A DNA stretch of 55,409 nucleotides from Deltaproteobacteria bacterium (GTDB taxonomy: Bacteria; Myxococcota_A; JAADFL01): assembly GCA_013152945.1 (NCBI GenBank), contig JAADFL010000165.1, forward strand, positions 1 to 55,409, written 5' to 3'. Under the pieces are notes generated by a model. That model was not told the DNA's origin. It ran no database searches and worked only from the letters and a program-made list of their open reading frames with translations. Shown piece by piece: positions 17,316-55,351 of this stretch (position 1 is the first letter of the stretch; each line of letters opens with the position of its first letter). The position numbers and the translations under genes are program-made.

Positions 17316-18068
17316 ATGAGAGCCAGGCACCAAACAGTCATTAACCTGGTTTTCCTGATTGCAGCCTTGTTGTACCTTTTGACATTCTCATGCTCATCCG
17401 CATTCTCCGGCCAGGTAAAAAGCAACAGGGCGGAATCACAGGAAACCAATAACATAAAACATGCCGGCGAAATAAGATTCAACGCTGAAGTAATGCCTTT
17501 GTCCGAGGAAATGAAAAACAAGATGAACGGTGTCACCTTCAGGCCCGGTTGCCCGGTTCCTTTATCGGATCTCGTATTGATCAGGGTCGATTACCATGGA
17601 TTCGATCACAAGATTCATCATGGACAATTGGTTGTACACAAGAAAGTCGGTCCCGAACTGATAGAGATCTTCAGGGATATCTTCAATGCAGGTTTTCCCA
17701 TCGACAAGATCAAGCCTGCAAGCGATTATAATGGAAATGACGACGCATCCATGGCGGATGACAACACGTCAGCCTTTAATTGCCGACCCGTAACCGGCGG
17801 CAAGAGGTTTTCAGCCCATGCATACGGCCTGGCAATAGACATCAACCCCATGCTCAACCCGTATATCAAGGGTAAGATCGTAGAACCGCAAAACGGAAAG
17901 ATTTATTCGAACAGGCGACTCAAGAGGCCGGGAATGATCCGAAAGCCCGGGCCCGTGTACAAGGCCTTTACATCAAGGGGCTGGAAATGGGGCGGGTCAT
18001 GGCACACCCTGAAAGACTATCAGCACTTTGAATTCCCCCTGGAAAATTTGGCCAGCAAGCTCGAGTAG
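17316..18068 (+). CDS. M15-family peptidase (VanY/L,D- or D,D-carboxypeptidase-like), exported
   Basis: The 250-aa product starts with a signal peptide (hydrophobic residues about 8-24, followed by Cys-containing LTFSCSS, possibly but not clearly a lipobox). The zinc-peptidase signature is complete: FSAHAYGLAIDI supplies a His and an Asp, and WHTLKDYQHFEF supplies the third ligand His. Family members trim peptide stems of peptidoglycan. It is co-transcribed with the TPR/cNMP-like membrane protein just upstream. The last 16 codons, including the HFEF zinc ligand, overlap the 3' end of the convergent RND permease gene by 49 bp. Confidence 0.9.
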   Translation: MRARHQTVINLVFLIAALLYLLTFSCSSAFSGQVKSNRAESQETNNIKHAGEIRFNAEVMPLSEEMKNKMNGVTFRPGCPVPLSDLVLIRVDYHGFDHKIHHGQLVVHKKVGPELIEIFRDIFNAGFPIDKIKPASDYNGNDDASMADDNTSAFNCRPVTGGKRFSAHAYGLAIDINPMLNPYIKGKIVEPQNGKIYSNRRLKRPGMIRKPGPVYKAFTSRGWKWGGSWHTLKDYQHFEFPLENLASKLE

Positions 18069-21373: not shown

Positions 21374-21410
21374 GATCCACCCGAAGTTCGTCTATTCAAT
21401 GCTCCCGGAC

Positions 21411-24400: not shown

Positions 24401-24926
24401 CACCATCGACAGACTCAAGGGCCGGGGCAATTTCCTCTTCCGCATAAAGCCTAAGGCCGTATAAGTCCATGTCACCGAATATGCCTACACGCATAACGGG
24501 ATCCAGGGCCGGGTCATATCGAAGTATCAACGGCCTTTCTATTTCGTCGGCAAAGGGCACGAGGTCCAGTTGCTCGCGTATGTCCCTGGCCGCCTTGTCA
24601 ACGTCCTCGCTCCAGGTGAATTCCAGGACCACATCCGAGACTTCCGCCCTGGAAATAGACTCCATCCTGATGAGCCCGCCGACGGTGGAGAGTACTTCCT
24701 CGATGGGCTTGGTGACCTCGCTCTCCACCTCTTCGGGAGCAGCGCCGGGGTAAGTGGTTCTTACCGTTATGGTGGGGTAGGAAATATCCGGCATGAGGGC
24801 TACAGGGAGTTTCTTGAAGCTGAAATATCCGAACACAAGGACAGCGGCCACCATCATCAAAACAGCCACAGGCCTTTCCACCGGGAAAAAAGGCCCGTAC
24901 CTATCAGGAGCCTTTTTCTGCATCAC
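21411..24926 (-). CDS. RND efflux permease (HAE1-like), first permease of the operon
   Basis: The 1,171-aa protein is a proton-driven inner-membrane exporter. Recognisable blocks are VALMPDISYPTITVRTTYPG at the N terminus, GMLVDNAIVVLESIQRCMEEG in helix 4, FVEGVAGQIFGDLSMTVVFSL in helix 6, and VLAGIVVNDAIVLVDYVNQL near helix 10. It is longer than typical RND permeases (about 1,040 aa) because the cytoplasmic linker between the two halves (residues about 535-660) is enlarged and contains two extra hydrophobic stretches (YYVLRFLILLPLELLF and SAVMLARGLSFLAF). The first codon is GTG at 24926, overlapping the adaptor stop (GTGA); the ATG directly after it is an alternative. Confidence 0.94.
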   Translation of the reverse strand: MMQKKAPDRYGPFFPVERPVAVLMMVAAVLVFGYFSFKKLPVALMPDISYPTITVRTTYPGAAPEEVESEVTKPIEEVLSTVGGLIRMESISRAEVSDVVLEFTWSEDVDKAARDIREQLDLVPFADEIERPLILRYDPALDPVMRVGIFGDMDLYGLRLYAEEEIAPALESVDGVAVAKVRGGLEREVRISLDEGRIASLGLTSEWIVARLKAENINLAGGRLKEGQTEYLVRTLSEFKNLDEIRQVVITVRNGAVIRLGEIAKVEETHKDREVITRIDGKEAVEVAVYREADANLVKVAQRVRDKIFGTSAQQKYVKYTKADSSGTFSERVKDRKKAAAMAKLYKRMTDFLVFKAPAGLRMTVLSDQSRFVTSAVGEVESAMILGGLLAVLVLYMFLKSSHATWVVGLSIPISVVATFAPMYLFGVSLNVMSLGGLALGVGMLVDNAIVVLESIQRCMEEGDEPIAASVRGSKEVLGAITASTLTTVAVFFPIVFVEGVAGQIFGDLSMTVVFSLLASLGTAAFFVPMMTARKARADAQKSGAGAEKTGGSLWLDAEFRSLHVTVQDLASLKEKGIAKKIAGYVYYVLRFLILLPLELLFGKIIYISAVMLARGLSFLAFRVLGEKVLANVLSPLVKANDIALSGLRKSYPRLLAWSLDNRGSVLAIAFLMFLGAMWALSSLGAELIPEVAQGEFTLEAFAPIGTPLRETARRVAPIERMLKNMDEVEAVTSVIGLDKSDYTKSGKGEHTADIMVRLAGADELGKLGLDTASAEDRVIGKLRRFLLNTPGLDGKISRPTLFSFRTPLEVEIKGHDLALLRKVASKVYGVLKDQEFLQDLNTSVHPGHPEVRITYKRERLAYMGLSVAEVAREVRNKVQGNTATHFTRGDRRYDVVVRLNAFDRSNLQNLKMLTVGTRNKKAVPLAAVADVKIVEGPAEIRRIDTRRAADITSDVSRGVDLASAAQKVRSLLSGIKLPADFSMEVTGQDQEMERSLESLWIALALAIFLVYVVMASTFESLFQPFVILFTLPLAAAGAGFALYIGGWPLSVFVLLGFIVLAGIVVNDAIVLVDYVNQLRARGFSRRDALLRAGPVRLRPILITTVTTVLGLLPMALGIGEGSELRQPMAVVVMAGLTSATLLTLVVIPVVYDLFDSILSRRSSRKRPSFG

Positions 24927-26086
24927 TTTCCCTGTCCTCTTTTTCGTTCTTTGGAAGAGGTAACAGTCTTGCCGGTCGTCTTTACATGATTCTCATCGGC
25001 ATGTTTCGAGTAATCAACCACCTTGACCCTGGAACCGTCTTTCAGGCCTGCCTGGCCTATTACCATGACCATATCCCCAGGCGATACACCTTCCATTACT
25101 TCCACGCTTTCCTTGTTCGAAGCCCCAAGCTTCAACGGACCGACCTTGCGTGCCTTGCCTTGCTCCACGAGGAAAATAATGGGCAGGCCTTCCTCGAAAA
25201 CTATGGCTCTCTTTGGAATGAGTACCACGCCTTTTTTAATGCCCAGTTCGATATCCACTTTTACGAACATTCCGGGGACAAGTTTCTTGTTCACTGTTTG
25301 CTTGGGGGTTGAATCAACTTTCAGGGTAACCTCGACCGTGCCGGTGGTGGAGTCCACAACAGGATTGATCCTTTCAATCTCAGCCGGAAAACTCATTTGC
25401 AGAGAATCACTATGGGCCTCGGCCTTTAAGCCGGGCCTGAGCCTGGCCAGATGCCGTTCAGGCACATGGACCTTGACAATCAGGTGTTCGAGGTCCACCA
25501 CGGTGAACAGGCGGCGGTTCGGCAACAAGTACTCACCAAGGCTGATGTCTCTCTGGGTGACCGTACCTGCTATTGGGGACCTCACGAATGTGTGCGCCAA
25601 CTCCCATGTCATTTGTTCCAAATTCAGCTTTGCCTGCTCGGCCTGGTATTGGAGATCCCTCACCTGCTTCCATGAAACAGCACCCTTTTGGGCCAGTTTC
25701 TTAGTATCCACAAGGTCTGCTTCGAGCTTATTTACCGTGCTCTGGGCCCTTGCCCGGCTGTTCACAACGGTTGCATTGTCCAAATGGCAAAGAAGCGAAC
25801 CCTTCCTGACCGTGTCACCTTCTTCCACCGCCAATCGATCCACCTTCCCGGATACCTCTGCCAGGACATCAACATGGTTGACCGATTCAACAGTCGCCGA
25901 GGCCCAGAGCTTCTCGATAAGATCACCGGTCACGGCCTTTACCGCTTCAACAGGCACGGCCTCGTCCGCATCACCCCCGGACTTGCTGTCTCCACCCGGT
26001 CCCAACCCGGAGCCGATGCACCCCGTAAATACCGAGATTATAAAAAACAAGATCACCACGGACCAATTCCGCATATTCAACGCCAT
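24923..26086 (-). CDS. RND periplasmic adaptor (membrane fusion) lipoprotein
   Basis: ATG 26086 is chosen because AGGGGG lies about 10 nt upstream and the protein then opens with a lipoprotein signal (ALNMRNWSVVILFFIISVFTGC). The frame runs further upstream without further support. The 387-aa product shows the adaptor order: lipoyl half-motif (VDVLAEVSGKVDRLAVEEGDTVRKGSLLCHLD), alpha-hairpin (about residues 105-155), second lipoyl half (FVRSPIAGTVTQRDISLGEYL) and beta-barrel (IVKVHVPERHLARLRPGL). It bridges the two downstream RND permeases to an outer-membrane channel. It is divergent from the two-component system, so the 194-bp gap up to 26280 should hold both promoters. Confidence 0.93.
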   Translation of the reverse strand: MALNMRNWSVVILFFIISVFTGCIGSGLGPGGDSKSGGDADEAVPVEAVKAVTGDLIEKLWASATVESVNHVDVLAEVSGKVDRLAVEEGDTVRKGSLLCHLDNATVVNSRARAQSTVNKLEADLVDTKKLAQKGAVSWKQVRDLQYQAEQAKLNLEQMTWELAHTFVRSPIAGTVTQRDISLGEYLLPNRRLFTVVDLEHLIVKVHVPERHLARLRPGLKAEAHSDSLQMSFPAEIERINPVVDSTTGTVEVTLKVDSTPKQTVNKKLVPGMFVKVDIELGIKKGVVLIPKRAIVFEEGLPIIFLVEQGKARKVGPLKLGASNKESVEVMEGVSPGDMVMVIGQAGLKDGSRVKVVDYSKHADENHVKTTGKTVTSSKERKRGQGK

Positions 26087-26280
26087 GCCCTTGCGCCCCC
26101 TGATATCCGGTTTTTTCCAATCACTTCGAGTTATCTCCGTTCGCTTCAATTTAAAACTATTCAACTTACCTTGAGTAATTCTTAAGCCTGCGGAAAACAA
26201 GTGTCTTGAATGAAATCAGTATAAATGGCAGCATCGGTACACAGGAATTCATTGTCCCGGGCTCAAAGGAATGGATCGAC

Positions 26281-26967
26281 ATGGCCGTTGTCCTGGTTAT
26301 TGAAGACGACAAGGCTCTGGGCGAACAGATCGAAACGGTCCTCAAGGAGGCCGGCTACGAAGTCACCTGGAAACCGGACGGCCTTCTGGGGCTCAAAGCC
26401 GTCAAGGAAATTGAACCCGACATGGTGGTCCTGGACATCATGCTGCCCAAGATGGACGGCTTTGCAGTACTATCCAGGATCAGAGACTTTTCGTCCGTGC
26501 CCGTCATCATACTTACGGCACTTTCCGAAGGTGAAGACAAGGTCAGGGGATTGGACCTGGGAGCCGACGACTACCTGACCAAGCCTTTCTGGATGGAGGA
26601 ACTCCTTGCCAGGATCAGGGCACGCCTGCGAAGGCCGAACCTGGCGCAGGATGAAAACATTTTCTCGTTTGGAGACGTAGTGGTCGAACCGGATGCCAGG
26701 AGGGTCGAGGTCCACGGCAAACCTGCGGAATTGACACGGGTCGAATTCGACCTGCTGCTGTATCTCTTGCAACGGCCCGGCCGGGCAATCACCAGGGAAC
26801 ACTTGGTAGAGGCGGCCCTGGAACCTGAAAAAGAAGGAACTTACAGGACACTGGACACCCACTTTTCAAGGATCAGGAAAAAGCTGGGATCGAGCGGCGG
26901 TTATATCAAGACAGTATGGGGTATTGGGTACAGGTTTGTCCCTGACCAGGGCGACGACCGGCAATAG
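26281..26967 (+). CDS. OmpR-family response regulator
   Basis: ATG 26281 follows AAAGGA at 10 nt; the frame extends 25 codons further back, but that part has no homology to receivers. The 228-aa protein has an N-terminal receiver with the acidic pair (VIEDDKAL), the phosphoacceptor Asp at residue 52 (VVLDIMLPK), the conserved Thr (ILTALSEG) and Lys (YLTKPFWMEELLARI). A C-terminal winged helix follows (LTRVEFDLLLYLLQRPGRAITREHLVEAAL … LDTHFSRIRKKLG … IKTVWGIGYRF). It should act with the kinase 18 nt downstream and probably controls the divergent RND operon; this is inferred from position. Confidence 0.95.
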   Translation: MAVVLVIEDDKALGEQIETVLKEAGYEVTWKPDGLLGLKAVKEIEPDMVVLDIMLPKMDGFAVLSRIRDFSSVPVIILTALSEGEDKVRGLDLGADDYLTKPFWMEELLARIRARLRRPNLAQDENIFSFGDVVVEPDARRVEVHGKPAELTRVEFDLLLYLLQRPGRAITREHLVEAALEPEKEGTYRTLDTHFSRIRKKLGSSGGYIKTVWGIGYRFVPDQGDDRQ

Positions 26968-26985
26968 CCGGAAAACGGCGGGAAA

Positions 26986-28347
26986 ATGCGGCGTAAGTTA
27001 CTTTTCAGGTTGACCGTTACCTTGCTTGCCGTGCTGGTCTTGTACGGCCTCATTCTCGGATTACCGGCAATGGCATGGCAGAGCTTTGCTGCCAAGAGGG
27101 CATTCAAAGAACTGATCCTGGCCTCCATGCTGGCAGGTGAAAGGCGGAAATGCGAGTCATCTCCGGCGGACTTTGTCTTCACGAGCCCGTCGGGAGGGCA
27201 TTACTATCCCTATGGGCCGGACGGCTCACCGTCCAATCCCAAGGCCCCTGCCCTTCCGAAAAGACTCTTGGCCCAACTGGACCGAATAAGAGGAGTAGCT
27301 TTGGACATGGGCCTTTTCGAGCCTGACAAGGGAGGCCGCATGGCAGCGGCCAGGATGCCCTGGAAAGGTCCCTGCTCGATAATCGGCGGCAAGCTGCCTC
27401 TCGAGTCCGCGATGGTGGCACGAACCGTGTTGACGGCCACCATTTTTTGGGCACTGGTCTGCGCCTTGCTCGCTCTTGGCGCAGGCCTGCTCGTGTACAG
27501 CCCGATGGTAAAAAGGATCAGGAAACTTGAAAGGGCCGCAGCTTCCATTGCAGACGGCAACTACTCGGGCCGCCTGACGCTTCAAGGCCACGACGAATTG
27601 GCCGACTTGGCAAGGTCCTTCAACAAGGCGGCCGACGAGATAACCAAGAGAGACATGGCAATGACCAAGTTGCTCCAGGATGTGTCCCATGACCTCGTAA
27701 CTCCCTTGGCATCGTTACAAGCAGCGGTCGAGGCAATCTCCAGGGCCGACAACAGGAAAAGTGAAAAATTTGAAGATAATATTTCCAGGGCCCTCGAAGA
27801 AGTTACTTACATGGCCGGACTTGTCCGCGACCTCAAGGCTGCATCCAAGAGTGACGCAGGCAACTGGGAGCCGCAGATTCGCAGTCTTGACTTGAATGAA
27901 ATCGTGAAGCGCGTAGTCAACAGGTTCATTCCCCTTGCAAGGAGAAGGGGAATTTCCCTGGATTATTCGGTTCCGGATGAATCAATCATAGTGGATGCCG
28001 ACGATTCTCTCGTTCAACAGACTCTTTCCAACATAGTCCAGAACTCTGTTCAGTACAACCATGATGGAGGACACATTGCAGTTGTCCTCCAACACGACAA
28101 GGAAGCAGATGCCTTCAGGCTGGAAATCACGGACGACGGCCCGGGCGTCGGCAAGGAACAAATCCCGCACCTTACACAAAGACTCTTCAGGGGGGACCAG
28201 GCGCGGGCAAGGAGACCGGGAGGCATGGGACTGGGGCTTTCGATTGCGGAAAAGGTCACGGCTTCCCACGGTTGGAAACTCGAATTCTTCCAAATCGAGC
28301 CAAGCGGACTCGGCGTCGCAATTTCAGGCGATACCCGGAAACCATGA
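26986..28347 (+). CDS. Sensor histidine kinase with HAMP domain
   Basis: The 453-aa protein has two membrane helices (about residues 6-28 and 146-168) around a periplasmic sensor region of about 115 residues. A HAMP domain follows (about residues 173-225), then the H-box DVSHDLVTPLASLQ with His near residue 235. The ATPase N box (QNSVQYN), G1 (DDGPGVG) and G2 (GMGLGLSI) are present. It pairs with the response regulator immediately upstream. The periplasmic part has no signature I recognise, so the signal is unknown. The RND operon on the other side suggests an envelope or toxic-compound stress. Confidence 0.95.
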   Translation: MRRKLLFRLTVTLLAVLVLYGLILGLPAMAWQSFAAKRAFKELILASMLAGERRKCESSPADFVFTSPSGGHYYPYGPDGSPSNPKAPALPKRLLAQLDRIRGVALDMGLFEPDKGGRMAAARMPWKGPCSIIGGKLPLESAMVARTVLTATIFWALVCALLALGAGLLVYSPMVKRIRKLERAAASIADGNYSGRLTLQGHDELADLARSFNKAADEITKRDMAMTKLLQDVSHDLVTPLASLQAAVEAISRADNRKSEKFEDNISRALEEVTYMAGLVRDLKAASKSDAGNWEPQIRSLDLNEIVKRVVNRFIPLARRRGISLDYSVPDESIIVDADDSLVQQTLSNIVQNSVQYNHDGGHIAVVLQHDKEADAFRLEITDDGPGVGKEQIPHLTQRLFRGDQARARRPGGMGLGLSIAEKVTASHGWKLEFFQIEPSGLGVAISGDTRKP

Positions 28348-28354
28348 AAAACCA

Positions 28355-28402
28355 TTGACAAACTACGACACGTGTCGTAGGTTTAATATACGACATGCGT
28401 CG
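28355..28402 (+). promoter_or_regulatory. Promoter with two BlaI-type operators
   Basis: TTGACA (28355-28360) and TAGGTT (28378-28383) form a 17-nt-spaced promoter. A perfect 18-bp palindrome, CTACGACACGTGTCGTAG (28363-28380), fills the spacer and the first part of the -10 hexamer. A second, weaker dyad CGACATGCGTCG (28391-28402, within TACGACATGCGTCGG) lies 25 bp further, centre to centre. BlaI/MecI repressors bind dyads containing TAC/GTA ends at promoters, so both are good candidate operators for the repressor gene starting at 28448. Confidence 0.75.
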
Positions 28403-28447
28403 GACTTTGGAGATAGATGAATAGGTCAGGCGGGAAAAGGATAAAAC

Positions 28448-28861
28448 ATGATTTCAAAGGATGATAACCCTATTCCGGGCGGCGACCTCGAAAGAGCATT
28501 GCTGGTCCTGCTCTGGGAACACCGTGATTCGCCATGCACGGCCCGGGACCTGCACGATAAAATTGCAAAGGACCGTAATATCGTTTACACCACGGTTACA
28601 AAGGTTCTCGATCGCATGGTCGAGAAGGGCCTAATCGAACGCCGCCGTGCCGGCCGGGCTTTTGTGTACAATGCCAGAGTAAACCAGGAGCAGACTCAAC
28701 GTTCTATTGTCCGAGATGCCCTGCGCAGCGTGCTCGGCAAGAATCCAAGACCTGCCGTGGCAGCGCTGGTGGGCGCAATCGAGGATGTTTCTCCCGAATT
28801 GTTGGACGAACTGGCCGCACAACTGGCGGACCGCCGCAAGGAGCCGGGCAATGGAACGTGA
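28448..28861 (+). CDS. BlaI/MecI-family transcriptional repressor
   Basis: The 137-aa product has the family winged helix: LERALLVLLWEHRDSPCTARDL, IVYTTVTKVLDRMVEKGLIERRRAGRAFVYNA, followed by a dimerisation tail. BlaI-type proteins bind their promoter as dimers and are cleaved after activation of an M56 metallopeptidase. A ribosome-binding site (AAAAGGA) precedes ATG 28448. The perfect palindrome 70-85 nt upstream fits autorepression. The gene overlaps the M56 peptidase gene by 11 nt and heads an operon for a tripartite RND pump. Confidence 0.93.
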   Translation: MISKDDNPIPGGDLERALLVLLWEHRDSPCTARDLHDKIAKDRNIVYTTVTKVLDRMVEKGLIERRRAGRAFVYNARVNQEQTQRSIVRDALRSVLGKNPRPAVAALVGAIEDVSPELLDELAAQLADRRKEPGNGT

Positions 28862-29705
28862 GGAATTGCTCTGCCTTCTGAGCACAGCGCTCTTCGGAAT
28901 GGCTGTGTGGGTTGCAGCCCTGGCCCTGGACAAGTTCCCGTCACGTCCGGTCATATCAGAACGCAGGGCTTGGTGGGCGCTTGTGGCCCCGCTGTTCGTG
29001 GGACTCATGACAACAGCCTTCCTGGCGGGCTGGGCTCTACAGGAGCCGGATCCGACCGACGAATGGGCAAGCGGGTTGACATGGGCGATTGCGGGTTGGA
29101 TGTCTGCCGGACTCATTCGTGCCCTGTGGCGAAGTTGGCTGGCTGCCCGTACACCCCGCCTTGAAAATACTCCGGTTGCCACTCTCGGACTTTTTCGCCA
29201 TCGTATCGTTGTCTCGCCGGTCTTTGTCGAGGCCGCCGGCCCTGCCGTACTCGCGGCAGCCTTATCGCACGAGTTGGCGCACAAGCAGGCGCACGATCCT
29301 GTTCGGATATGGCTGGCCCAGTTTTTCGCCGACCTGCAGTGGCCTGTCCCGGGAACAGCAAAACGCTTACGAACCTGGCTGCTGGCTCTCGAAATGCGAC
29401 GTGACGACGAGGCTGTTGCAAACGGCGCCGGGCCTATGACACTGGCCGAAGCCATCATCCTCGCCGCCCGGCTCGGCAACAACTTTTCAATACCAAGGGC
29501 ACGAGCAGCCGGGAGCTCGCGAGAGATATCGGCCAGGGTGCAAAGACTTATCGAAGCAAAAGACCCGGTTCTTCATAGAGACAGAGCCCGCGCATCCCAC
29601 CTGACTGCCCCGGGGGCATTGGTAATCTGTCTTGGGACATCGTTGTGGCTGGGTTTCATATACGGGGAACGCTTGTTGGCCTTCTTTCCGGGCATCATAC
29701 GGTGA
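28851..29705 (+). CDS. M56-family (BlaR1/MecR1-like) membrane metallopeptidase without sensor domain
   Basis: The 284-aa protein has N-terminal membrane segments (LLCLLSTALFGMAVWVAALAL; WWALVAPLFVGLMTTAFLAGW; a third near residues 75-95), a zinc HExxH motif in ALSHELAHKQAHDP (about residue 141) and a downstream acidic ligand region (LALEMRRDDEAV). A final helix (APGALVICLGTSLWLGF) is near the C terminus. BlaR1 and MecR1 carry an additional penicillin-binding-like extracellular domain of about 250 residues; here it is absent and only a few residues follow the last helix. The inducer must therefore be sensed by another part or another protein. The start overlaps blaI, and the stop overlaps the adaptor start (GTGA). 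Confidence 0.9.
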   Translation: MEREELLCLLSTALFGMAVWVAALALDKFPSRPVISERRAWWALVAPLFVGLMTTAFLAGWALQEPDPTDEWASGLTWAIAGWMSAGLIRALWRSWLAARTPRLENTPVATLGLFRHRIVVSPVFVEAAGPAVLAAALSHELAHKQAHDPVRIWLAQFFADLQWPVPGTAKRLRTWLLALEMRRDDEAVANGAGPMTLAEAIILAARLGNNFSIPRARAAGSSREISARVQRLIEAKDPVLHRDRARASHLTAPGALVICLGTSLWLGFIYGERLLAFFPGIIR

Positions 29706-30883
29706 GCTTGCGTGGAACTGTAACTCTTACCCTCGTGACGTTCCTGCTCGCGGGATGTCAAGGCATCGCCCCACAAGAGGAAACGTTCCGATCCACATCA
29801 CATGTGGACTCCGAAGGCAGGGTAGTCCTGACACAAAAGGAAATTAAAGCCGTCAACCTACAAGTTGCGGAGGCAAAGAGCGGCAAAGTGTACACCACAA
29901 ATATTCGTTTTGGAAAAGTTATCCCACGACCCAACGACAACGTAATGGTCGTCGCACCGGTGCAGTCCCGGCTCGCCGACATCAAGGTATCGTACGGACA
30001 AAGCGTAACCGCAGGTGATGTTCTCGCCGCCTTGCAACCGGCTGTAAATGCCGTGGCTCAAGCCGATATGACTACAAGGCTGGCTGGAATCAACGCACAG
30101 ATAACCGCCGGCAGGTCCCGCATACGGGCAGCCGGGGTCGAACTCGATCGGATCTCAAAGCTCTTGGAATCAGGCCTTGCAACTTTGGCACAACGAGAAC
30201 AGGCAAAAGCCGAGCTGGAATCGGAAAAGGCGTTGATAAGCGGCCTTGAACGTTCGGCGCATGTCCTTCGCGGTTACGCGGGCGGGCATATTGTGTTAAC
30301 CGCGCCGGTTTCAGGGAACATCGTTGAAATAAAAGCACGAATCGGCGCCCTTCTCAAGCAGGGACAAGTAGTGGCGCAAATCGTAACCCCGGGACCAAGG
30401 TTCATCGATCTCGGAGTACCGCCCGACGATCCGACCGGCGATGCATACCTCGTCGAAACAGCCGGTCGTCACTTTACCGGCGAGCTGCTTGCTCGCGGCA
30501 GCTTTATCGTAAACGGGATGCGCACGGATCGAATAAGAATCCGAACCGGCGACATGCCTTCATTGTCACCCGGCCGGATAGTACCAGTACAGGTCCGACA
30601 TGAACTTTCCGGCATTGTCGTGCCGTTGATGTCGGTTGTAAGGCTCCACATGGATCGCATCGTATTCATCGAGATTCATCCCGGTCTATACAAGCCGCAA
30701 AAAGTCGTGCTTTCAGGCAATAATGGAAGTCTTGCCGTGGTGTCCCGGGGGGTTGCGCCCGGGGAACATGTCGTTGTACAGGGTGCGGCTTCCCTTCTCG
30801 GGGAAATCGGTTTTTCCGGCCGTCTTGGCGACCTTGATAAAAGGAACAAGATCAAGACCGGCAACAGGGCGTCCGGAAAATGA
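29702..30883 (+). CDS. RND periplasmic adaptor lipoprotein (HlyD/CusB type)
   Basis: GTG 29702 overlaps the M56 stop as GTGA and gives a compact lipoprotein signal (SLRGTVTLTLVTFLLAGC). The 393-aa product shows the first lipoyl half (MVVAPVQSRLADIKVSYGQSV), an alpha-hairpin (residues about 115-190), the second lipoyl half (VLTAPVSGNIVEIKARIG) and a beta-barrel and membrane-proximal part ending with VVQGAASLLGEIGFSG. It couples the inner-membrane permease to the TolC-like protein of the same operon. It overlaps the permease gene by 4 nt (ATGA), so translation is coupled. Confidence 0.93.
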   Translation: MSLRGTVTLTLVTFLLAGCQGIAPQEETFRSTSHVDSEGRVVLTQKEIKAVNLQVAEAKSGKVYTTNIRFGKVIPRPNDNVMVVAPVQSRLADIKVSYGQSVTAGDVLAALQPAVNAVAQADMTTRLAGINAQITAGRSRIRAAGVELDRISKLLESGLATLAQREQAKAELESEKALISGLERSAHVLRGYAGGHIVLTAPVSGNIVEIKARIGALLKQGQVVAQIVTPGPRFIDLGVPPDDPTGDAYLVETAGRHFTGELLARGSFIVNGMRTDRIRIRTGDMPSLSPGRIVPVQVRHELSGIVVPLMSVVRLHMDRIVFIEIHPGLYKPQKVVLSGNNGSLAVVSRGVAPGEHVVVQGAASLLGEIGFSGRLGDLDKRNKIKTGNRASGK

Positions 30884-33800
30884 ATGCATTGTTCGACGCG
30901 GTTATTCGTGGTGCGATTCGCAATCGCATCGCTGTAATCCTGACCGCCCTGGTCATTACACTAATCGGTGTCCGGCAAATTCAGCAGGCCCGCCTTGATG
31001 CCCTGCCCGGATTCACGCCACCCATGGTCACGATCCAGACTGAAGCCCCGGGGTACGGCAGCTCCGAGGTTGAACAGCGAGTCACAGCTCCGCTGGAGCA
31101 GGGTTTGCCGGGCATCCCGGGTGTCACACAGGTTCGTTCTACATCTTACGCCGGTCTATCAGTCATTGAACTCACCTTCAGGGACGGCACGAACATCTTT
31201 CATGCACGCCAGCTCGTTAACGAACGCCTCACGCAGTCGATTGCGGAACTGCCGGTTACCATACCGGCTCCACAACTCGCACCGATCGTATCGCCGATCG
31301 GCGCCCTATTGAAATTCACTTATACTGTCGATAGTGACAATACCGGGGTTTTTCGCGATCTCTCACGGTTCGTCCGATGGAGCCTCGCACCCAGGCTAAG
31401 GGCAATAGGCGGCGTGGCGCGCGTTACAGTGCACGGTGCGGCCGCCTTGAGGGTTGAAATACGTCCCGACTTTTCCCACATGATAGCGCGGAATATACGA
31501 TTTTCGGACCTACGCCGGGCAGTGGCACATGCCCAAGGCACTGCCGCGCCGGGTCATGTCAACGTTGGGGCGCAACGAATCCCTCTGCGGGCAAAGGTGC
31601 ACTGGTCCAATAAAGAAATAAACAAACTTGCAGACACTGTCGTGAAAATGCATGGGCAACGGCCCATCCGTTTACGTGATGTAGCGGACATTGATATCGG
31701 AAGTGCGCCTGCGGTGGGTTATGCCGTTCAAGACGGCCGCCGGGCCGTGTACGTCCAAGTGGACAAGCTTCCATGGGCCGATACCTTGGACCTGACCGAA
31801 CGCGTGCAGCACATTATTGCCGAAACCGATCATCTTGTGCCCCGGGGTTGCCGTAGAGAAGCACCGGTCTTCAGGCAGGCCGACTTCATTCGAACGTCCT
31901 TGTGGTCGGTGGGCCGGGCCATGCTCATTGGTTCGGGCCTTGTAATAATTATGCTGCTCATGTTCCTTGGGTCCTTACGTGTTGCCGGCATCAGTTTGAT
32001 TGCCCTGCCCTTGTCCATGCTTACGGCGGTAACGGTTTTATTGCTTAAAGGCGCGACAATCAACGGAATGGTACTGGGTGGGCTTGCAATTGCGGTAGGA
32101 GAAGTAGTGGACGATGCAATCGTGGACGTGGAAAACATCTGGAGACGCCTGCAGCAGAACGCCGGACTTTCGTCGCCACGCCCCATGCTTGAAGTAATAC
32201 ACGATGCTTCGATCGAGATCCGGGGCGCGGTCGTTTACGCATCCTTGATCATCGTGGTGGTCCTGGTTCCAATACTGGCGGTAGGCGGGTTGGCCGGGCG
32301 AATATTCTCTCCCCTTGCCGAGGCCTATGCCCTTGCAATCAGTTCCTCGCTGATCGTGGCCCTCACAATTACACCCGCTATGAGTGCCTTACTGCTTAAT
32401 AAAAAGAAAACTCTCGGAACAAGAGACAGCACGATAACTCTGTATGCAGACCGGACATATGAACGCATCCTCGCCATTGTCCGCCGCCGCCCGGGGACAA
32501 CAGTGCTGACAACACTTGTAATCGGTATTTCCTTCATGATTATGTTGCCCTTGATCGGCGGTGGATTCCTTCCTGAATTTCGCGAGGGAGTACTCATCGC
32601 GGAGGTAAGTGCCTGGCCCGGCACCTCACTCGGGGAGACCACGCGCCTGGCCAAACGAATAATGGGCCGCCTTTTGGGCCCGGGACATGTACCACATGTA
32701 GCGGCACGCATTGGTCGTGCCGCCTTGGACGAGGATTCGGCCCCGGTCTACCGCATAGAGATGGATCTGAAGTTGCCGCCTGACAGCGGAGATCCGGAGG
32801 AAGTCGCCGCACGGGTCCGGCGCCAATTTTCAACTATGCCCGGCATTCGGTTTTCCGTGGATGGTTTCCTTGGCGAGCGAATCAACGAGTTACTCGCGGG
32901 CGAACGTGCCCCGATTGCAATAAAGCTCAAGGGAGATGACCTGGCGGTTCTCCGTAAGGCCGCATCAATATTGATTGGCCGGCTTGCACGGATACCTGGT
33001 CTGCAAAGCATACGGTCCCGTAACCTGGTGGACGTGCCTACTATGGATATCGTGCCAAGGGATGCAGCACTCGTGCCGGCGGGAGTCATGCCGGCCGAGA
33101 TTGCAAGAACCATAGCCGCAGGAAAAGAAGGCTTGCCTGTAACCGAGCTTACAGGCCCGAACGGCTTCAAGGTCCCGGTTGTGTTTGCTCCGTCTTCCGC
33201 CTTTGCCGATGCAGGCAGACTTCCCGATTTTCCAATATGGACAAATACAGGCAATGTACTGCCGATGTCCGCATTGACAAACATAGTGGACGGCACGGAA
33301 CCGGCATACATTCAGCACGAGATGGGGCAACGTGTTGTTACACTTACAGCAACTGCAAGGCAGGCCGATCTTTCCGCAATTGCCGGGGCCATCGGGCTGC
33401 TCTTGAGAGACGGGAATCTCCCTCCGGGAATTACGTGGGAAACGGCGGGACAGGCTGTTGAACGGCACCGGGCGAGTACCCGCTTGTTTCTCATTGCAAT
33501 AATTGTGATTGGCGCCGTCATGGTATTCCTGTGGATGGCCTTCAGGTCGTTCACCGACTCTTTGGTCATAATCCTCGGCATTCCCGTCGGCCTTGCTGGA
33601 GGTGTTATAGCCGCACTTCTCCTGCCTGATGGTCTCTCGTTGGCGGGATTAATCGGGTTCGTTACGCTGACCGGTATCATTTGTCGAAACGGTATCATGC
33701 TCGTATCGCACAAGAACCATCTTTTTTCCCGGTATCCGGGCGAAGATCCCGGCCGGTTGATTGTCCGGGCTGCAAGAGATCGACTCCGGCCAATCCTGAT

Positions 33801-33990
33801 GACCGCATTCACGGCGTTCGGAGGATTGTTACCTTTGGCAATATCTCTTGGCAAGGCAGGCAGCGAACTTGAGTCTCCCATGGCCGTGATAGTATGCGGA
33901 GGGTTGCTTACCTCAACGATCCTGAACCTGCTCGCCGTACCTGCATTCTACCTCTGGCGCTCTCGATCGAGCATTTCACAGGAGTTTTGA
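30880..33990 (+). CDS. Heavy-metal-type (HME, CzcA/CusA-like) RND efflux permease
   Basis: The 1,036-aa length and motifs fit HME-RND pumps: LDALPGFTPPMVTIQTEAPG, EVEQRVTAPLEQGLPGIPGV, and the helix-4 proton-relay segment GEVVDDAIVDVENIWRRL with both Asp residues present. Twelve membrane helices and two large periplasmic loops are evident. The helix-4 pattern matches metal-type RNDs, but the substrate cannot be read from the sequence; metals or other toxic compounds are possible. The gene belongs to the BlaI/M56-controlled operon and follows the adaptor with an ATGA overlap. A 64-nt gap separates it from the metallophosphoesterase gene. Confidence 0.93.
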   Translation: MNALFDAVIRGAIRNRIAVILTALVITLIGVRQIQQARLDALPGFTPPMVTIQTEAPGYGSSEVEQRVTAPLEQGLPGIPGVTQVRSTSYAGLSVIELTFRDGTNIFHARQLVNERLTQSIAELPVTIPAPQLAPIVSPIGALLKFTYTVDSDNTGVFRDLSRFVRWSLAPRLRAIGGVARVTVHGAAALRVEIRPDFSHMIARNIRFSDLRRAVAHAQGTAAPGHVNVGAQRIPLRAKVHWSNKEINKLADTVVKMHGQRPIRLRDVADIDIGSAPAVGYAVQDGRRAVYVQVDKLPWADTLDLTERVQHIIAETDHLVPRGCRREAPVFRQADFIRTSLWSVGRAMLIGSGLVIIMLLMFLGSLRVAGISLIALPLSMLTAVTVLLLKGATINGMVLGGLAIAVGEVVDDAIVDVENIWRRLQQNAGLSSPRPMLEVIHDASIEIRGAVVYASLIIVVVLVPILAVGGLAGRIFSPLAEAYALAISSSLIVALTITPAMSALLLNKKKTLGTRDSTITLYADRTYERILAIVRRRPGTTVLTTLVIGISFMIMLPLIGGGFLPEFREGVLIAEVSAWPGTSLGETTRLAKRIMGRLLGPGHVPHVAARIGRAALDEDSAPVYRIEMDLKLPPDSGDPEEVAARVRRQFSTMPGIRFSVDGFLGERINELLAGERAPIAIKLKGDDLAVLRKAASILIGRLARIPGLQSIRSRNLVDVPTMDIVPRDAALVPAGVMPAEIARTIAAGKEGLPVTELTGPNGFKVPVVFAPSSAFADAGRLPDFPIWTNTGNVLPMSALTNIVDGTEPAYIQHEMGQRVVTLTATARQADLSAIAGAIGLLLRDGNLPPGITWETAGQAVERHRASTRLFLIAIIVIGAVMVFLWMAFRSFTDSLVIILGIPVGLAGGVIAALLLPDGLSLAGLIGFVTLTGIICRNGIMLVSHKNHLFSRYPGEDPGRLIVRAARDRLRPILMTAFTAFGGLLPLAISLGKAGSELESPMAVIVCGGLLTSTILNLLAVPAFYLWRSRSSISQEF

Positions 33991-34054
33991 TAATGGTTTT
34001 TCTTTCCGGTATTCTGCTTGAAGAACTTGCCGGCCTACTAACAAGGAGGTTGCC

Positions 34055-35152
34055 GTGTCTTCTCAAACTTTCGGAAAATATGAACGGTCCATCTTATTTT
34101 TCGCATCACTTTTCATACCGGCTGTTTTACTTGCAGCATGTAATTCGACCGGCAACAACACTCACACCATGGATAAGGATGCTGCTGAAAACAACGATGC
34201 AGACGCTGCTATCGATGAAGGCGACGATACCGTAACCCCAGATCAAGAGAGCCTGGCCGATCAGGAGAGAACAAATCAAGGCGACGAAATCGACGCCTGG
34301 GCGGATCAAGTCGATCGAAATGAATCAAACAATAATTGGATTGGTCCTGACGGAGGATCGGTCGACCGACTCAGGTTCGTGGCCTTTGGCGATGTCAGGC
34401 CCCCGGCTATCGACCAGGATGATGCCTACCCGTCACATGTGGTAAACCAAATTTTCAGGCAACTTGCAGTAAGGAACCCCCAATTCGTGATTGGTGTCGG
34501 TGACTGGGTCTTCGCATCAGACTATAATCATGCAAAAACACAGATGCAGTTTCTTCTGGACGCAGAGAAGCCTTATGCACATTTCGTCTTTCATATCATG
34601 GGTAATCACGAATGCAATGGATGGACGGACAGCAACTGCCCAGAAGGCGATGAAACAGGCCAGGTCAGGGCTTATTACGAGCTTCTCTGGAACTTCAGCA
34701 CAAAACCGTACTTCAGGTTCGACGTGCAAACTTCTTTCGGCGATGCCAAGTTCGTTATCACGGCTCCGAACGCCTGGAATAGTGCGCAGGAAGACTGGCT
34801 TCGCCGTACCTTGAACGATCCTACCCCGTATACGTTCATATTGCGCCACGAGCCGCCGGATGCAACGCGTGCTCCGGGTGTGGGACCAAGTGAAACGATT
34901 ATCAAGAGCCACAAAGACAACACGCTTATCATCTATGGTCATGTCCATCACTATGAACACCTCTCCACCAACGAGGTCATCAGTGGAAACGGCGGGGCTC
35001 CACTCAGCGGCCCGGACTCCGGTCATTTCTTTGGATACTTGCTCGTGGAACAGCTTTTTGACGGAAACATTCAGGTCAGTGAGTACAAAGAAGGAAGTGA
35101 TGAATTGAAGGATCGATTCGTACTCGGTCCGAACGGCAAGGCGGTCAATTGA
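34055..35152 (+). CDS. Lipoprotein metallophosphoesterase (calcineurin-like)
   Basis: Start GTG 34055 has a strong ribosome-binding site (AAGGAGG, 5 nt away). The 365-aa product opens with a lipobox (PAVLLAAC) and an acidic Asp/Glu-rich linker (about residues 40-95), then a calcineurin-like phosphatase domain. The metal-site motifs are in order: AFGDVRPP, VGVGDWVF, IMGNHECNGW, LRHEPPD and YGHVHHYEHL. It would work outside the inner membrane, on a phosphoester not identifiable here. Its position inside an RND-pump operon, between the permease and the TolC-like gene (TTGA overlap with the latter), is unusual. Confidence 0.93.
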   Translation: MSSQTFGKYERSILFFASLFIPAVLLAACNSTGNNTHTMDKDAAENNDADAAIDEGDDTVTPDQESLADQERTNQGDEIDAWADQVDRNESNNNWIGPDGGSVDRLRFVAFGDVRPPAIDQDDAYPSHVVNQIFRQLAVRNPQFVIGVGDWVFASDYNHAKTQMQFLLDAEKPYAHFVFHIMGNHECNGWTDSNCPEGDETGQVRAYYELLWNFSTKPYFRFDVQTSFGDAKFVITAPNAWNSAQEDWLRRTLNDPTPYTFILRHEPPDATRAPGVGPSETIIKSHKDNTLIIYGHVHHYEHLSTNEVISGNGGAPLSGPDSGHFFGYLLVEQLFDGNIQVSEYKEGSDELKDRFVLGPNGKAVN

Positions 35153-36513
35153 TTGAAAACAGACCCGAAAATACAAGCCGGCGGTTAGTGCTGCGACCGG
35201 TCCTGCTCATGCCCGTATTCCTGGCGGGATGCCTCGCCGGCTTGCACCAATCTCCTCCGGGTCCGGTACCTGTTCCCGTTTCCTGGCAACCAAAAGCAGT
35301 TTTCCGGGCCCTGCTCGAAACCCGTGACCCGGGGAGCACGGTTTTGGACGGCCGGGATGGCTTTTCACCCGATGAAGCAGCTCTCTTCTCATTGGATCAC
35401 AACCCGATGCTCCGTGCCGTTAGAGCGGAAAAGGGCATCGCCCGTGCAGAAATCCTCAGGGCGGGTCTCCTGCCGAACCCGAAACTCGAAGGAAATATTT
35501 CCGTGCCGGCCGGCGGCCGTGACGCCCTGATGCTTGGATACGGCGGGGGATTGTCCTGGAACGTCATGCCATTGTTACCGCGGTCGTCACGTATCCAGGC
35601 GGCGCGGGAGCGTTCAGTATCCGTAGATCTCGACATTGCCTGGCGGGAATGGCAGGTGGCGCAAAGTGCAAGGTTGCATGCCATACGGCTTATCTTTCTC
35701 GGCAGGCAGGTCAATGTTGCAAGAGAAGCGGGAAAGTATTGGCGGAAACGGGTAAAAAGCTACCAATGTGCACTTGCCGCAAAGGCGACAACAAAGCTAC
35801 AACTTGCCGGAGCACAAAGATCCCTGGCAGAGTGGAGATTGCAGCGGCAAGAGTTTGAACGACAGCGTCTGATCGAACGCGCAGCATTGGCCCGTTCTCT
35901 CGGTATAGAACCGAGCCAGGTTCCTGCAATGCAGGCATCATGGCACCCGGGCCGGGACATTCCGGATTCATCCGGTCTTGTTGCCGGACTCGGCAGACAC
36001 CGGCTCGACCTCATTGCCCTTCAACACGCGCAGCAATCCAGGGACCATGCACTACGTGCAGCCGCCCTTGCACGTTTTCCGCCCATTGAACTCGGTATAC
36101 ATGGAGGCAGGGATGTCGATGGGGTCGGGTCGGCCGGTTTCACCCTGAGCTTCACCATGCCCGTCTTTGACCACAACCAGTACCAGACGGCCCTGGAACA
36201 TGCACGAAGACATAAGGTGAAGGAAGAATACAAGGCACGGCTCTTGCGAGCCGAAACACAGACCGATCGATATGTTAAGGAACTCTCTCTCCTCAAAAAG
36301 CAATTGGCCACTGCCGAGGCTGCTGACAAGACTGCGAACCGGCTGGCTGTGCTTGCGGATTCATCGGCCTCTCTCGGAGTATTGAATCCCATGATTGCAG
36401 CAGGCAGTCAGGACGCTGCATATCGTGCTCAACTGAAAAAACTGGCTATCGAAAAAGCTTATGCCGAAACAACGGTCGCATTATCCATCACTGCCGGTGT
36501 GACGATTCGATAG
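35149..36513 (+). CDS. TolC-family outer-membrane efflux protein (lipoprotein)
   Basis: The start is TTG 35149, overlapping the previous stop as TTGA. The 454-aa product has a lipobox (LLMPVFLAGC) after an unusually basic N terminus. The OEP domain is recognisable: 'ALFSLDHNPMLRAVRAEKGIARAEILRAGLLPNPKLEG' near the N terminus and a second repeat ending in TALEHARRHKVKEEYKARLL, with long coiled-coil helices. It would supply the outer-membrane channel for the adaptor and HME permease upstream. It is the last gene of the operon; the 129-bp gap before the convergent CNT transporter gene holds no obvious terminator. Confidence 0.9.
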   Translation: MIENRPENTSRRLVLRPVLLMPVFLAGCLAGLHQSPPGPVPVPVSWQPKAVFRALLETRDPGSTVLDGRDGFSPDEAALFSLDHNPMLRAVRAEKGIARAEILRAGLLPNPKLEGNISVPAGGRDALMLGYGGGLSWNVMPLLPRSSRIQAARERSVSVDLDIAWREWQVAQSARLHAIRLIFLGRQVNVAREAGKYWRKRVKSYQCALAAKATTKLQLAGAQRSLAEWRLQRQEFERQRLIERAALARSLGIEPSQVPAMQASWHPGRDIPDSSGLVAGLGRHRLDLIALQHAQQSRDHALRAAALARFPPIELGIHGGRDVDGVGSAGFTLSFTMPVFDHNQYQTALEHARRHKVKEEYKARLLRAETQTDRYVKELSLLKKQLATAEAADKTANRLAVLADSSASLGVLNPMIAAGSQDAAYRAQLKKLAIEKAYAETTVALSITAGVTIR

Positions 36514-36642: not shown

Positions 36643-38442
36643 TCACAAAATTATTCCGGCAATCGTGGCAGTCATGTTGGCTGCCAGGAAACCGCCGAAC
36701 ATGGCCCTCAAGCAGACCTTTGCCAAGTCCCCTCTCCTGCCTGGAGCAATCCCGCCGATCCCCCCGAGTTGTATGCCTATGGAAGCGAAGTTGGAGAAAC
36801 CGCACAATGCATAACTAGCGATTATGGCGCTCCTCGCGGATAATATGCCTCCCTGTGCGATTATGTGCCCCAAGTTGAGATAAGCAACGAACTCGGTAAG
36901 AACGATTTTTTCACCAAGCAACGAGCCGACCGTCATGGCCTCGTCAGCCGGAACACCCATCATGAATGCGAACGGCCAAAAAATGTAACCGAAGATCTCC
37001 TGCAAACTGGTTCCCACCATGCCCAGAAAGTAGTTTATCATTGCCATGAGGCCCACAAAGGCCACGAGCATGGCCACCACGTTCAATAACAAGGTCATTC
37101 CTTCGGTGGCTCCCCTTGCAGCAGCCTCTATTACGTTCCTGTCCACCTTCTCGACGGAAATTTCGAGGCCGCCCATTGTTGCGCTCTTCTCTGTCTCGGG
37201 ATAGATGATCTTGGCGACTGCAAGGGCTGCAGGGGCGCTCATGATGCTTGCAGTCACCAAGTGACCGGCAATGCCGGGGATATCCCGCAGGAAGCCCACG
37301 TATGCAGCCATCACACCGCCGGCAACAGTGGCGAAACCGCCTACCATTATTGCATGCAACTCGCTGTTCGTCATGTTTGCCACAAAGGGCTTGACGACCA
37401 GCGGGGCCTCTGTCTGTCCCACGAAGATATTTGCGGCCGCGGAAAGGGTTTCAGAGCCGGAGGTCTTCATGGTCTTTTGCATGGCCCATGCAAACGCCTT
37501 GACCACCTTTTGCATTATGCCAAGGTGATAAAGGACCGTCATGAGTGATGAAAAGAATATTATTGTAGGCAGTATCCAAAAAGTGAATGTCTTTACAGCC
37601 GAAGACATGGTGCCTGCAAAGCCCTGTCCCTGGAGAACCCTGTTGGTGGAAGGATCCCATGAAAACAAGAGGTGCGGCGCAGTTGCCTGAAAAACGAACT
37701 CGGCGCCTTTTTCACTGAATGAAAGGAGGATCTTTACACCGGTGTCTATACTGTTGAAGAAAAATTGTGCAACCCCGGGGCTCAGGATTATCAATGCAAA
37801 TATAACTTGCAGGCCGACGCCCCAAAGGACCGTCTTCCACCGGATCTTCCCGCGGTTTACCGAGATGAGCCAGGCTATACCCAACAGAAACGGAATGCCG
37901 AGCAAGGAAAAGAGCCTTTCCCACAGGGTGGTGGTTCTTTCCTTGAATTCACCTTTCTTGTTTCCAATCGAAGATGATCGTACTTCGCCTGTAAGATAGT
38001 ACCGTCCATCCTCCTCGACAAGATCGAACCGTAACACCCTTGACACGCCTTCCTTGTTTTTCAGGACAACACGGTTCTGGCGTGATATCCAACCGAAGCG
38101 ATCCCGTTCAAGGGGCGCAATGTTGCAATAACCTGGCACAAGGGAATCAAAAAACATTCCTTCGGCCGTCAGTTCCCGTCCCAGGCGAACGGCTTCGGCA
38201 ACGGCCTGAATCCTCTGTTCCCTGGGGAAAACAGGGTTTTTAGTCCAAAGGCCGTCGAGATATTCACTGTCCTTGGACAACAAAGCATGGGTCAACATAA
38301 TGCAAATTTTTGAATTCGGCTTGGTCCCGAGCCCTAAAGTCATGTCTTTTCTTTCTCCCGCGTTACAGGCGGAGGAATAAAACAGTCCTTGGAGACCAAA
38401 CACCAGCATTCCAAGAAAACATCCGTAAACCCGGTGCTTCAT
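36643..38442 (-). CDS. CNT-family concentrative nucleoside transporter with N-terminal periplasmic extension
   Basis: The C-terminal 410 residues match NupC/CNT transporters: TEAPLVVKPFVANMTNSELHAIMVGGFATVAGGVMAAY, MSAPAALAVAKIIYPE, FVAYLNLG and ALCGFSNFASIGIQLGG. These import nucleosides with Na+ or H+. The protein is 599 aa, about 180-200 longer than typical bacterial CNTs (about 400-420 aa). The extra N-terminal region has its own signal peptide (MLVFGLQGLFYSSACNA) and a soluble domain of about 150 residues, with no recognised motif. The gene starts 2 nt after the deoA stop and belongs to a nucleoside salvage operon (deoB-deoA-transporter). Confidence 0.9.
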   Translation of the reverse strand: MKHRVYGCFLGMLVFGLQGLFYSSACNAGERKDMTLGLGTKPNSKICIMLTHALLSKDSEYLDGLWTKNPVFPREQRIQAVAEAVRLGRELTAEGMFFDSLVPGYCNIAPLERDRFGWISRQNRVVLKNKEGVSRVLRFDLVEEDGRYYLTGEVRSSSIGNKKGEFKERTTTLWERLFSLLGIPFLLGIAWLISVNRGKIRWKTVLWGVGLQVIFALIILSPGVAQFFFNSIDTGVKILLSFSEKGAEFVFQATAPHLLFSWDPSTNRVLQGQGFAGTMSSAVKTFTFWILPTIIFFSSLMTVLYHLGIMQKVVKAFAWAMQKTMKTSGSETLSAAANIFVGQTEAPLVVKPFVANMTNSELHAIMVGGFATVAGGVMAAYVGFLRDIPGIAGHLVTASIMSAPAALAVAKIIYPETEKSATMGGLEISVEKVDRNVIEAAARGATEGMTLLLNVVAMLVAFVGLMAMINYFLGMVGTSLQEIFGYIFWPFAFMMGVPADEAMTVGSLLGEKIVLTEFVAYLNLGHIIAQGGILSARSAIIASYALCGFSNFASIGIQLGGIGGIAPGRRGDLAKVCLRAMFGGFLAANMTATIAGIIL

Positions 38443-38444
38443 TT

Positions 38445-39752
38445 TCAGGCGCTCATCCTCAATTTCAAGAGTGAAGGCGCTTCAACCGGGCCCCGGCCGA
38501 TTCGCATTGCTTTGCGCAGCTTCTCCATGCAGTTTCCAAGTCTTTCCCTGTCCGAATAGAATATTTCCACGAGAGGCTCTCCTTTTTCGATCCGATCGCC
38601 TATCTTCCGGTTAACGAGCAGGCCGACGGAAGGATCGATCTCATCCTCCTTGGTCTTTCGCCCGGCACCAAGCTCCAATGCAGCCATGCCTACCGCCTCG
38701 GTATCGACAGACACCAAGTACCCTTCCTGCGCCGCTTCGAACACTGCATGTTCCCCGGCCTTGGGCAACAAGCTCGTATCATCGATCGCCCGCGGATCAC
38801 CGTCTTGCGCTTTCACCACCTCCTTAAGTTTTTCAAGGCCCCTTCCATCTTCAACAGCAGCTTCCAACATGGACCTCGCCTCCTGCCTGCCGGATGCCGC
38901 CTTGCCGAGGATCAACATTTCTTCCCCAAGCGTCATGGTGATTTCAGTCGTATCTTTCGGCCCCCGCCCTTTCAGAACATCGATTGCCTCCTCGACCTCC
39001 AGGGCATTGCCCACTGCTTTTCCTATCGGCTGGCTCATGTCGGTCACTACAGCTACCACATCCTTTCCCATGGACGATCCTATGGCGATCAGGGTATCGG
39101 CCAACAGCCTGGCCTCATCGAGCGTCTTCATAAAGGCTCCGGAGCCCACCTTTACGTCTAGCACCAGTGCGCCTATCCCCTCGGCGAGTTTCTTGCTCAT
39201 TATGGAAGAAGAAATCAAGTCTATACTGTCTACGGTAGCCGTCACGTCCCGCAAGGCGTACAACTTCCGGTCCGCCGGCGCCAACGTCGGCGTCTGGCCT
39301 ATCAATGAACAACCGACTTTCCTGACTTGTTCCCTGAAGCGTTCGGTGGAAAGGTCCACCCTGAATCCGGGAATGGATTCGAGCTTGTCCAGGGTTCCGC
39401 CGGTGTGACCCAGGCCCCTGCCGCTGACCATGGGCACCTTGACGCCGCAGGCCGCAGCCAAGGGCGCCAGGCATATGGATATCTTGTCGCCTACACCCCC
39501 GGTGGAATGCTTGTCCACCTTGGCCCCGGGTATGCCGGAAAGGTCCAGCACATCACCGGAGTACAACATGCTCCTTGTCCAGGCTGAAAGCTCGTTCCTG
39601 TCCAAGCCCTGGATGAAAACCGCCATGAGCATGGCCGACATCTGGTAATCCGGGATTTCTCCGCATGTATATGCAGAGATGAACCAGTCTATCTGTTCGG
39701 GCGACAGGCTTTCCTTGTTCCGTTTCTTTTTCAATATCTCGTACACGTTCAT
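38445..39752 (-). CDS. deoA: Pyrimidine-nucleoside (thymidine) phosphorylase
   Basis: The 435-aa protein has the nucleoside phosphorylase family II signature: KVDKHSTGGVGDKISICLAPLAAACGVKVPMVSGRGLGHTGG (phosphate and dimer region) and RDVTATVDSIDLISSSIMSKKLAEG. It cleaves thymidine, and probably uridine, with phosphate to a base and (deoxy)ribose-1-phosphate; whether it is DeoA-specific or the broader Pdp type cannot be told from motifs alone. GGAG precedes ATG 39752 at 6 nt. The gene sits between deoB (63 nt upstream) and the nucleoside transporter (2 nt downstream). Confidence 0.95.
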   Translation of the reverse strand: MNVYEILKKKRNKESLSPEQIDWFISAYTCGEIPDYQMSAMLMAVFIQGLDRNELSAWTRSMLYSGDVLDLSGIPGAKVDKHSTGGVGDKISICLAPLAAACGVKVPMVSGRGLGHTGGTLDKLESIPGFRVDLSTERFREQVRKVGCSLIGQTPTLAPADRKLYALRDVTATVDSIDLISSSIMSKKLAEGIGALVLDVKVGSGAFMKTLDEARLLADTLIAIGSSMGKDVVAVVTDMSQPIGKAVGNALEVEEAIDVLKGRGPKDTTEITMTLGEEMLILGKAASGRQEARSMLEAAVEDGRGLEKLKEVVKAQDGDPRAIDDTSLLPKAGEHAVFEAAQEGYLVSVDTEAVGMAALELGAGRKTKEDEIDPSVGLLVNRKIGDRIEKGEPLVEIFYSDRERLGNCMEKLRKAMRIGRGPVEAPSLLKLRMSA

Positions 39753-55331: not shown

Positions 55332-55351
55332 GGGCGGTTCGCGAACCGCCC
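55332..55351. repeat. Perfect 20-bp palindrome
   Basis: GGGCGGTTCGCGAACCGCCC is its own reverse complement. It lies in the repeat-rich region upstream of psd and would form a strong hairpin or a cruciform site. Confidence 0.8.

Follow-up and report, generated by a model that had tools for sequence, protein, structure and literature searches.

Organization of the operon

The 55,409-nt stretch of DNA analysed here, which we call the window, contains a run of six open reading frames, all on the + strand, spanning positions 28448-36513 (Table 1). They encode a repressor, a membrane protease, a periplasmic adaptor (MFP), an RND permease, a lipoprotein metallophosphoesterase (MPE) and an outer-membrane factor (OEP). 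These six genes had been named in a reading made from the sequence alone (the sequence-only reading), and ORFs and Pfam matches place all of them where that reading had put them. Lipoboxes are present in the MFP, the MPE and the OEP. In addition to its HlyD_3 match, the MFP matches the RND_mfp model at 2.2e-26, just under the cut-off. Adjacent genes overlap at four junctions, as had been noted, but the 4-nt GTGA, ATGA and TTGA overlaps are confined to M56/MFP, MFP/RND and MPE/OEP; the BlaI/M56 overlap is 11 nt long. The gap between RND and MPE is 64 nt and contains an AAGGAGG ribosome site. From this spacing we infer a single transcript for all six genes. Beyond the OEP gene, genes for a Na+-dependent nucleoside transporter and a pyrimidine nucleoside phosphorylase (36643-39752, - strand) face the operon.

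Table 1. Features of the BlaI-M56-pump locus; positions are those of the window.
Feature	Position	Strand	Description
Possible -35 element	28355..28360	+	TTGACA; from sequence
Operator box 1	28363..28380	no strand	CTACGACACGTGTCGTAG; perfect 18-bp palindrome, predicted BlaI site
Operator box 2	28389..28404	no strand	TACGACATGCGTCGGA; predicted, imperfect copy with one mismatch, 25 bp downstream of box 1 (centre to centre)
BlaI/MecI-family repressor	28448..28861	+	137 aa; PF03965 Penicillinase_R 1.8e-22
M56 (BlaR1-type) membrane metalloprotease	28851..29705	+	284 aa; HELAH + ExxxD; Peptidase_M56 6e-6
EL1 loop of M56	29031..29075	+	WALQEPDPTDEWASG; residues 61-75, identified by analogy with BlaR1 (PMC9834060)
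Periplasmic adaptor, MFP/HlyD family	29702..30883	+	GTG start; lipobox LLAGC; HlyD_3 1.5e-8
RND permease	30880..33990	+	1036 aa; ACR_tran 7e-211; VDDAIVDVEN in TM4
Lipoprotein calcineurin-type metallophosphoesterase (MPE)	34055..35152	+	365 aa; GTG start; lipobox LLAAC; PF00149 Metallophos 1.2e-10
TolC/CusC-type outer-membrane factor (OEP)	35149..36513	+	TTG start; lipobox FLAGC; PF02321 5.2e-21

The repressor scores 80.3 bits against Penicillinase_R (cut-off 22.6), which places it in the BlaI family, and it is the single BlaI gene in the host genome, a 4.84-Mb assembly of 218 contigs. Its best NCBIfam match is CopY/TcrY, at 47 bits against a 122-bit cut-off. The CopY/TcrY copper repressors share the BlaI-family fold; the window BlaI has only one cysteine and therefore no CopY-type cysteine motif. 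A short M56 protein paired with BlaI, as found here, is also known from Mycobacterium tuberculosis (BlaI/BlaR, Rv1846c/Rv1845c), where the targets are different (blaC and ATP synthase genes).

A predicted operator in the BlaI promoter

The dyad at 28363-28380 that the sequence-only reading reported is real and perfect, and a second box that it had missed lies in the same promoter. Besides box 1, the window has just one other perfect palindrome of at least 16 bp, and the exact pattern TACGAC-N1..5-GTCGTA occurs nowhere else in the genome. A 20-bp perfect palindrome, GGGCGGTTCGCGAACCGCCC, is located near the window end (55332-55351). The genome contains five matches to the operator with at most one mismatch, including boxes 1 and 2, fewer than the 20 counted for the control; BlaI therefore looks unlikely to govern a large regulon in this organism. 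The upstream region of BlaI contains no scoring standard sigma-70 promoter and no -10 partner for TTGACA.

The predicted operator in BlaI's own promoter, with its two boxes, belongs to a class of sites conserved in relatives. With a spacer of 3-9 and at most 1 mismatch allowed, the motif CTACKA-N-TMGTAG was found upstream of 31 of the 44 BlaI genes in related loci, compared with 2.1% of 250-nt windows drawn at random. The relatives nearly always have a spacer of 7 (CTACKA-N7-TMGTAG), and the window has one of 6. The second BlaI-M56 pair at locus L213 of genome G227, a window-type relative, has ATACGACGAGCGTCGTAC, with a 6-base spacer and the 18-bp spacing of box 1. No recognised operator was found at the BlaI-M56-MPE run of genome G356 discussed below.

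Upstream of the operon lies a second RND locus (18020-28347), in which an MFP gene and two RND genes, MdtABC-like and on the - strand, are divergent from genes for an OmpR-type response regulator and a histidine kinase. The two-component genes (26206-28347) point at the operon and the kinase gene, on the same strand, stops 100 bp short of BlaI, so that transcription could read through, and between the two genes there is no clear terminator except the dyad itself. The operon might then be driven mainly from upstream, with BlaI only tuning it. We consider this quite improbable: the double-RND locus (18020-26200), from which the two-component genes diverge, is their more likely target, and BlaI-M56-pump units elsewhere in the phylum have their own operators. 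We favour control from the predicted BlaI operator.

Conservation of the BlaI-M56-pump core

The known regulators of RND pumps are mostly TetR, MarR, MerR or two-component proteins. Our searches, in which the sampled relatives belong to the same phylum as the window, suggest that a BlaI-M56 switch is a further arrangement. A search of 140 genomes with the window M56 identified 34 M56 genes, a sample skewed to relatives of the window M56, and 31 of them have an RND gene downstream. Of the remaining three, two are followed by an OEP gene at the end of the contig or of the retrieved stretch, and one is pumpless. The commonest related order is BlaI-M56-OEP-MFP-RND; one locus (L104) has BlaI-M56-MFP-RND-OEP, which is the window order minus the MPE. 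In eight large genomes checked separately, just one BlaI is near a pump. The unit thus appears widespread yet patchy. The exact six-gene order with an MPE inside has no second case among the 377 sampled genomes. A plasmid search with M56 returned nothing, and four genomes searched outside the phylum gave only weak M56 matches. At L164:12307-13946, a BlaI-M56 pair whose EL1 loop is rich in His and Cys has no pump gene downstream.

These data support the idea that a BlaI/M56 proteolytic switch governs the tripartite pump, since the core and its operator are conserved in many genomes. They also answer, for the core, the objection that the arrangement might be unique to this genome; conserved co-occurrence holds for BlaI, M56 and the pump, while the MPE-containing order is found only here. 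A BlaI/M56-controlled pump is thus supported, and such units are commoner than had been thought. A literature search covering few subscription papers found no published description of a BlaI-M56-RND unit. The phylum operons share with the window the switch genes, the pump parts and the operator type. They differ in that the OEP gene usually precedes the MFP gene, the MPE is missing, EL1 is rich in His and Cys, and the RND proteins belong to other clades.

Classification of the RND permease

The tripartite MFP-RND-OEP composition resembles CusCBA/CzcCBA, and the nearest named model to the window RND is CusA/CzcA (TIGR00914). Its earlier description as an HME-type (CusA/CzcA) permease is nevertheless rejected on three grounds. 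It scores 543.6 bits against this model, for which the cut-off is 701.45. In a FastTree phylogeny built from 67 RND proteins together with CusA and ZneA, the clade that unites CusA and ZneA leaves out the window RND, with a support of 0.998 (1.0 with added sequences). It has E, R and E where CusA has M573, M623 and M672, and thus no methionine triad. The protein is best called, from these comparisons, an unassigned RND permease that is closest to HME by profile. Its clade in the FastTree phylogeny has nine other members, none adjoining BlaI, and a contig scan of genomes with the window RND gave four distant loci, all without BlaI. The nearest relative (53%; L072 in genome G257) is in an MFP-RND-OEP operon with a weakly BNR-like gene upstream. 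In-frame TGA codons were flagged in some RND matches; at least in genome G183, the TGA resembles a normal stop.

The M56 protease and its EL1 loop

The window M56 has a zinc site composed of HELAH (H140-H144) and E181-D185, which is invariant in the M56 alignment and corresponds to the HEXXH and EXXXD zinc motifs of S. aureus BlaR1 (PMC9834060). It has four predicted helices and stops just past the last one. A penicillin-binding sensor domain is absent from its C-terminus, which sets it apart from the BlaR1 sensor-transducers. The Pfam Peptidase_M56 gathering score is not reached (26.1 bits versus 31); its homologue in genome G356 passes with 35.6. A profile of the M56 family matched BlaR1 weakly in the PDB (E 0.013), and phmmer searches of the PDB with M56 or MPE singly gave no match. 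A single-sequence AlphaFold model of M56 had a pLDDT of 46, too poor for use.

In S. aureus BlaR1, the protease receives the beta-lactam signal by way of the EL1 loop between helices 2 and 3 (PMC9834060). With the EL1 position and topology transferred from BlaR1, the loop in aligned M56 proteins of the phylum contains 6.49 His+Cys residues, compared with 1.98 in random stretches of the same proteins; none of 5000 permutations reached this excess. Three His/Cys forms were distinguished, DHC..H..HLC..H in 26 cases with pumps outside the CusA/ZneA clade, HQxE..C..DH..C in 13 cases with pumps inside it, and a third form in four loops with pumps inside it, although these categories were drawn up after the data were seen and shared ancestry can account for the match between loop and pump. 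The presence of a His/Cys-rich loop in nearly all relatives suggests direct metal sensing, as in the copper-responsive PetR/PetP pair, and in most of the phylum relatives EL1 is probably a direct metal sensor. The M56 had been called 'sensorless', which is correct for the penicillin-binding domain, but in the relatives EL1 is probably the sensing element.

The EL1 loop of the window is different from those of the relatives. It is short and acidic and has no His or Cys in its 15 residues, and all five window-type M56 proteins have a 14-15-aa loop of the form W(A/G)L(Q/R)EP... without His or Cys. A soft or borderline metal is thus probably not the signal in this lineage, and the operon probably answers another one. 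This bears on the possibility, implied by the earlier HME-type label, that it is a metal-efflux operon, in which the metal detected by M56 is the one that the pump exports. The relatives' metal-binding-like loops and the best named RND model, CusA/CzcA, although under its cut-off, are consistent with it. So is PetR/PetP of Synechocystis, described in a commentary as a BlaI-family regulator and a BlaR1-family protease that respond to copper (PMC7896320); BlaI/M56 pairs are thus able to react to a metal. PetR/PetP controls plastocyanin/cytochrome c6, however, and the window EL1 is without metal-type ligands. Together with the missing methionine triad and the position of the RND outside the CusA/ZneA clade, this makes metal efflux an unlikely account of the window operon, and we prefer a non-metal signal.

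The phosphoesterase and the origin of the operon

The metal-ligand motifs of calcineurin-like phosphoesterases (GD, GD, GNH, H and GHxH) are all present in the MPE, and GD.R, GD, GNHEC, RH and GHxH are invariant in 14 aligned members. These shared ligands suggest that the MPE is likely an active phosphoesterase. Among solved folds, that of purple acid phosphatase is closest in sequence, with a weak match (E 0.002, PDB). The iron-binding Tyr of that enzyme after the second GD is missing; the MPE has GDWVFAS there, with Phe instead, as read by eye.

The window switch has its closest relatives in two genomes. BlaI is nearest to proteins in G227 (contig C361, 43%) and G356 (contig C106, 44%), with other BlaI proteins clearly lower, and M56 scores 110 bits against G356, 86-108 against G227 and at most 61 against all others. 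In G356 (L135), BlaI and M56 are followed, all in the same orientation, by a 278-aa gene, a lipoprotein-like gene of 455 aa and an MPE gene. A second MPE gene faces this one, the two lying at L135:3470-6678, and encodes the best match of the window MPE (239 bits, 47%); the genome contains five members of the MPE family. On contig C361 of G227, the second BlaI-M56 pair of the window-type group sits with a pump. The first pair (L213:2138-6273) is followed by ferric-reductase-like and cytochrome-c-like genes, a possible redox or copper regulon. Another pair in G227 (contig C153, L214:545-4144, minus strand) is followed by a DsbA-like gene. The variety of genes next to window-type pairs, for a pump, ferric-reductase/cytochrome-c-like proteins, a DsbA-like protein or an MPE, suggests that the switch has been reused for different envelope functions.

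The MPE is missing from every other pump operon read, and it is therefore rejected as a fixed pump component. In the sequence-only reading, the phosphatase would act on the pump substrate or its conjugate. Its family members mostly stand alone, and one is in a BlaI-M56 run without a pump (G356), so that it resembles a regulon component in its own right. It may instead have been inserted between RND and OEP by chance and be functionally unrelated to either the switch or the pump. We give this a substantial chance, a little short of even. The nearest pump relative (L072) and L104 have no MPE, the G+C content of the gene is lower (50.2% versus 55-60%), and most of its relatives are solitary. However, it overlaps the OEP gene by 4 nt, and close relatives of BlaI and M56 meet its nearest relative in one G356 locus. 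Since this MPE-bearing locus holds the closest relatives of the window BlaI and M56, the MPE may have accompanied the switch, and on the basis of two genomes its arrival with the switch is more likely than arrival with the pump. The pump may be the newcomer. The operon looks like a composite of a BlaI-M56 switch of the G356/G227 lineage, perhaps already linked to an MPE, and a pump from a clade with no other sampled BlaI-linked member.

Proposed mechanism and implications

Combining these data, we put at roughly 60% the probability that the operon is self-regulated by a proteolytic switch of the BlaR1/BlaI type, including its composite origin and a non-metal signal. In this model, BlaI would bind both tandem dyads in its own promoter and keep the operon off. 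M56, a membrane gluzincin with a presumably cytosolic HELAH...ExxxD site, would perceive an envelope signal by way of its short EL1 loop or its membrane helices and then cleave BlaI, as homology to the BlaR1 of S. aureus and to PetR/PetP suggests. Derepression would produce the MFP-RND-OEP pump together with the lipid-anchored phosphoesterase. The closest precedent is S. aureus BlaR1/BlaI (MecR1/MecI), which combines a BlaI-family repressor with an M56 gluzincin carrying HEXXH/EXXXD and is derepressed by proteolysis (PMC9834060). The window M56 differs in having no penicillin-binding domain (284 aa versus about 585), and the window switch adjoins a pump rather than a beta-lactamase.

A broader proposal, which we hold tentatively and doubt rather more than we trust, is that BlaI-M56 with a sensory EL1 is a widespread, undescribed proteolytic metal switch for RND efflux in the phylum, with a loop type that tracks the pump clade. 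The window operon would then be a derived branch with a changed loop, another pump, a co-regulated surface phosphoesterase and a non-metal envelope signal.

Our study introduces the phylum-wide unit and its operator, the hypothesis of a sensory loop and the composite origin of this operon. It points to dozens of genomes in which RND pumps are linked to a BlaI/M56 switch whose proposed sensory loop varies with the pump type. It provides a testable model for how an M56 protease that lacks a sensor domain could perceive a signal, and would tie regulation of the beta-lactamase type to metal or envelope-stress efflux.
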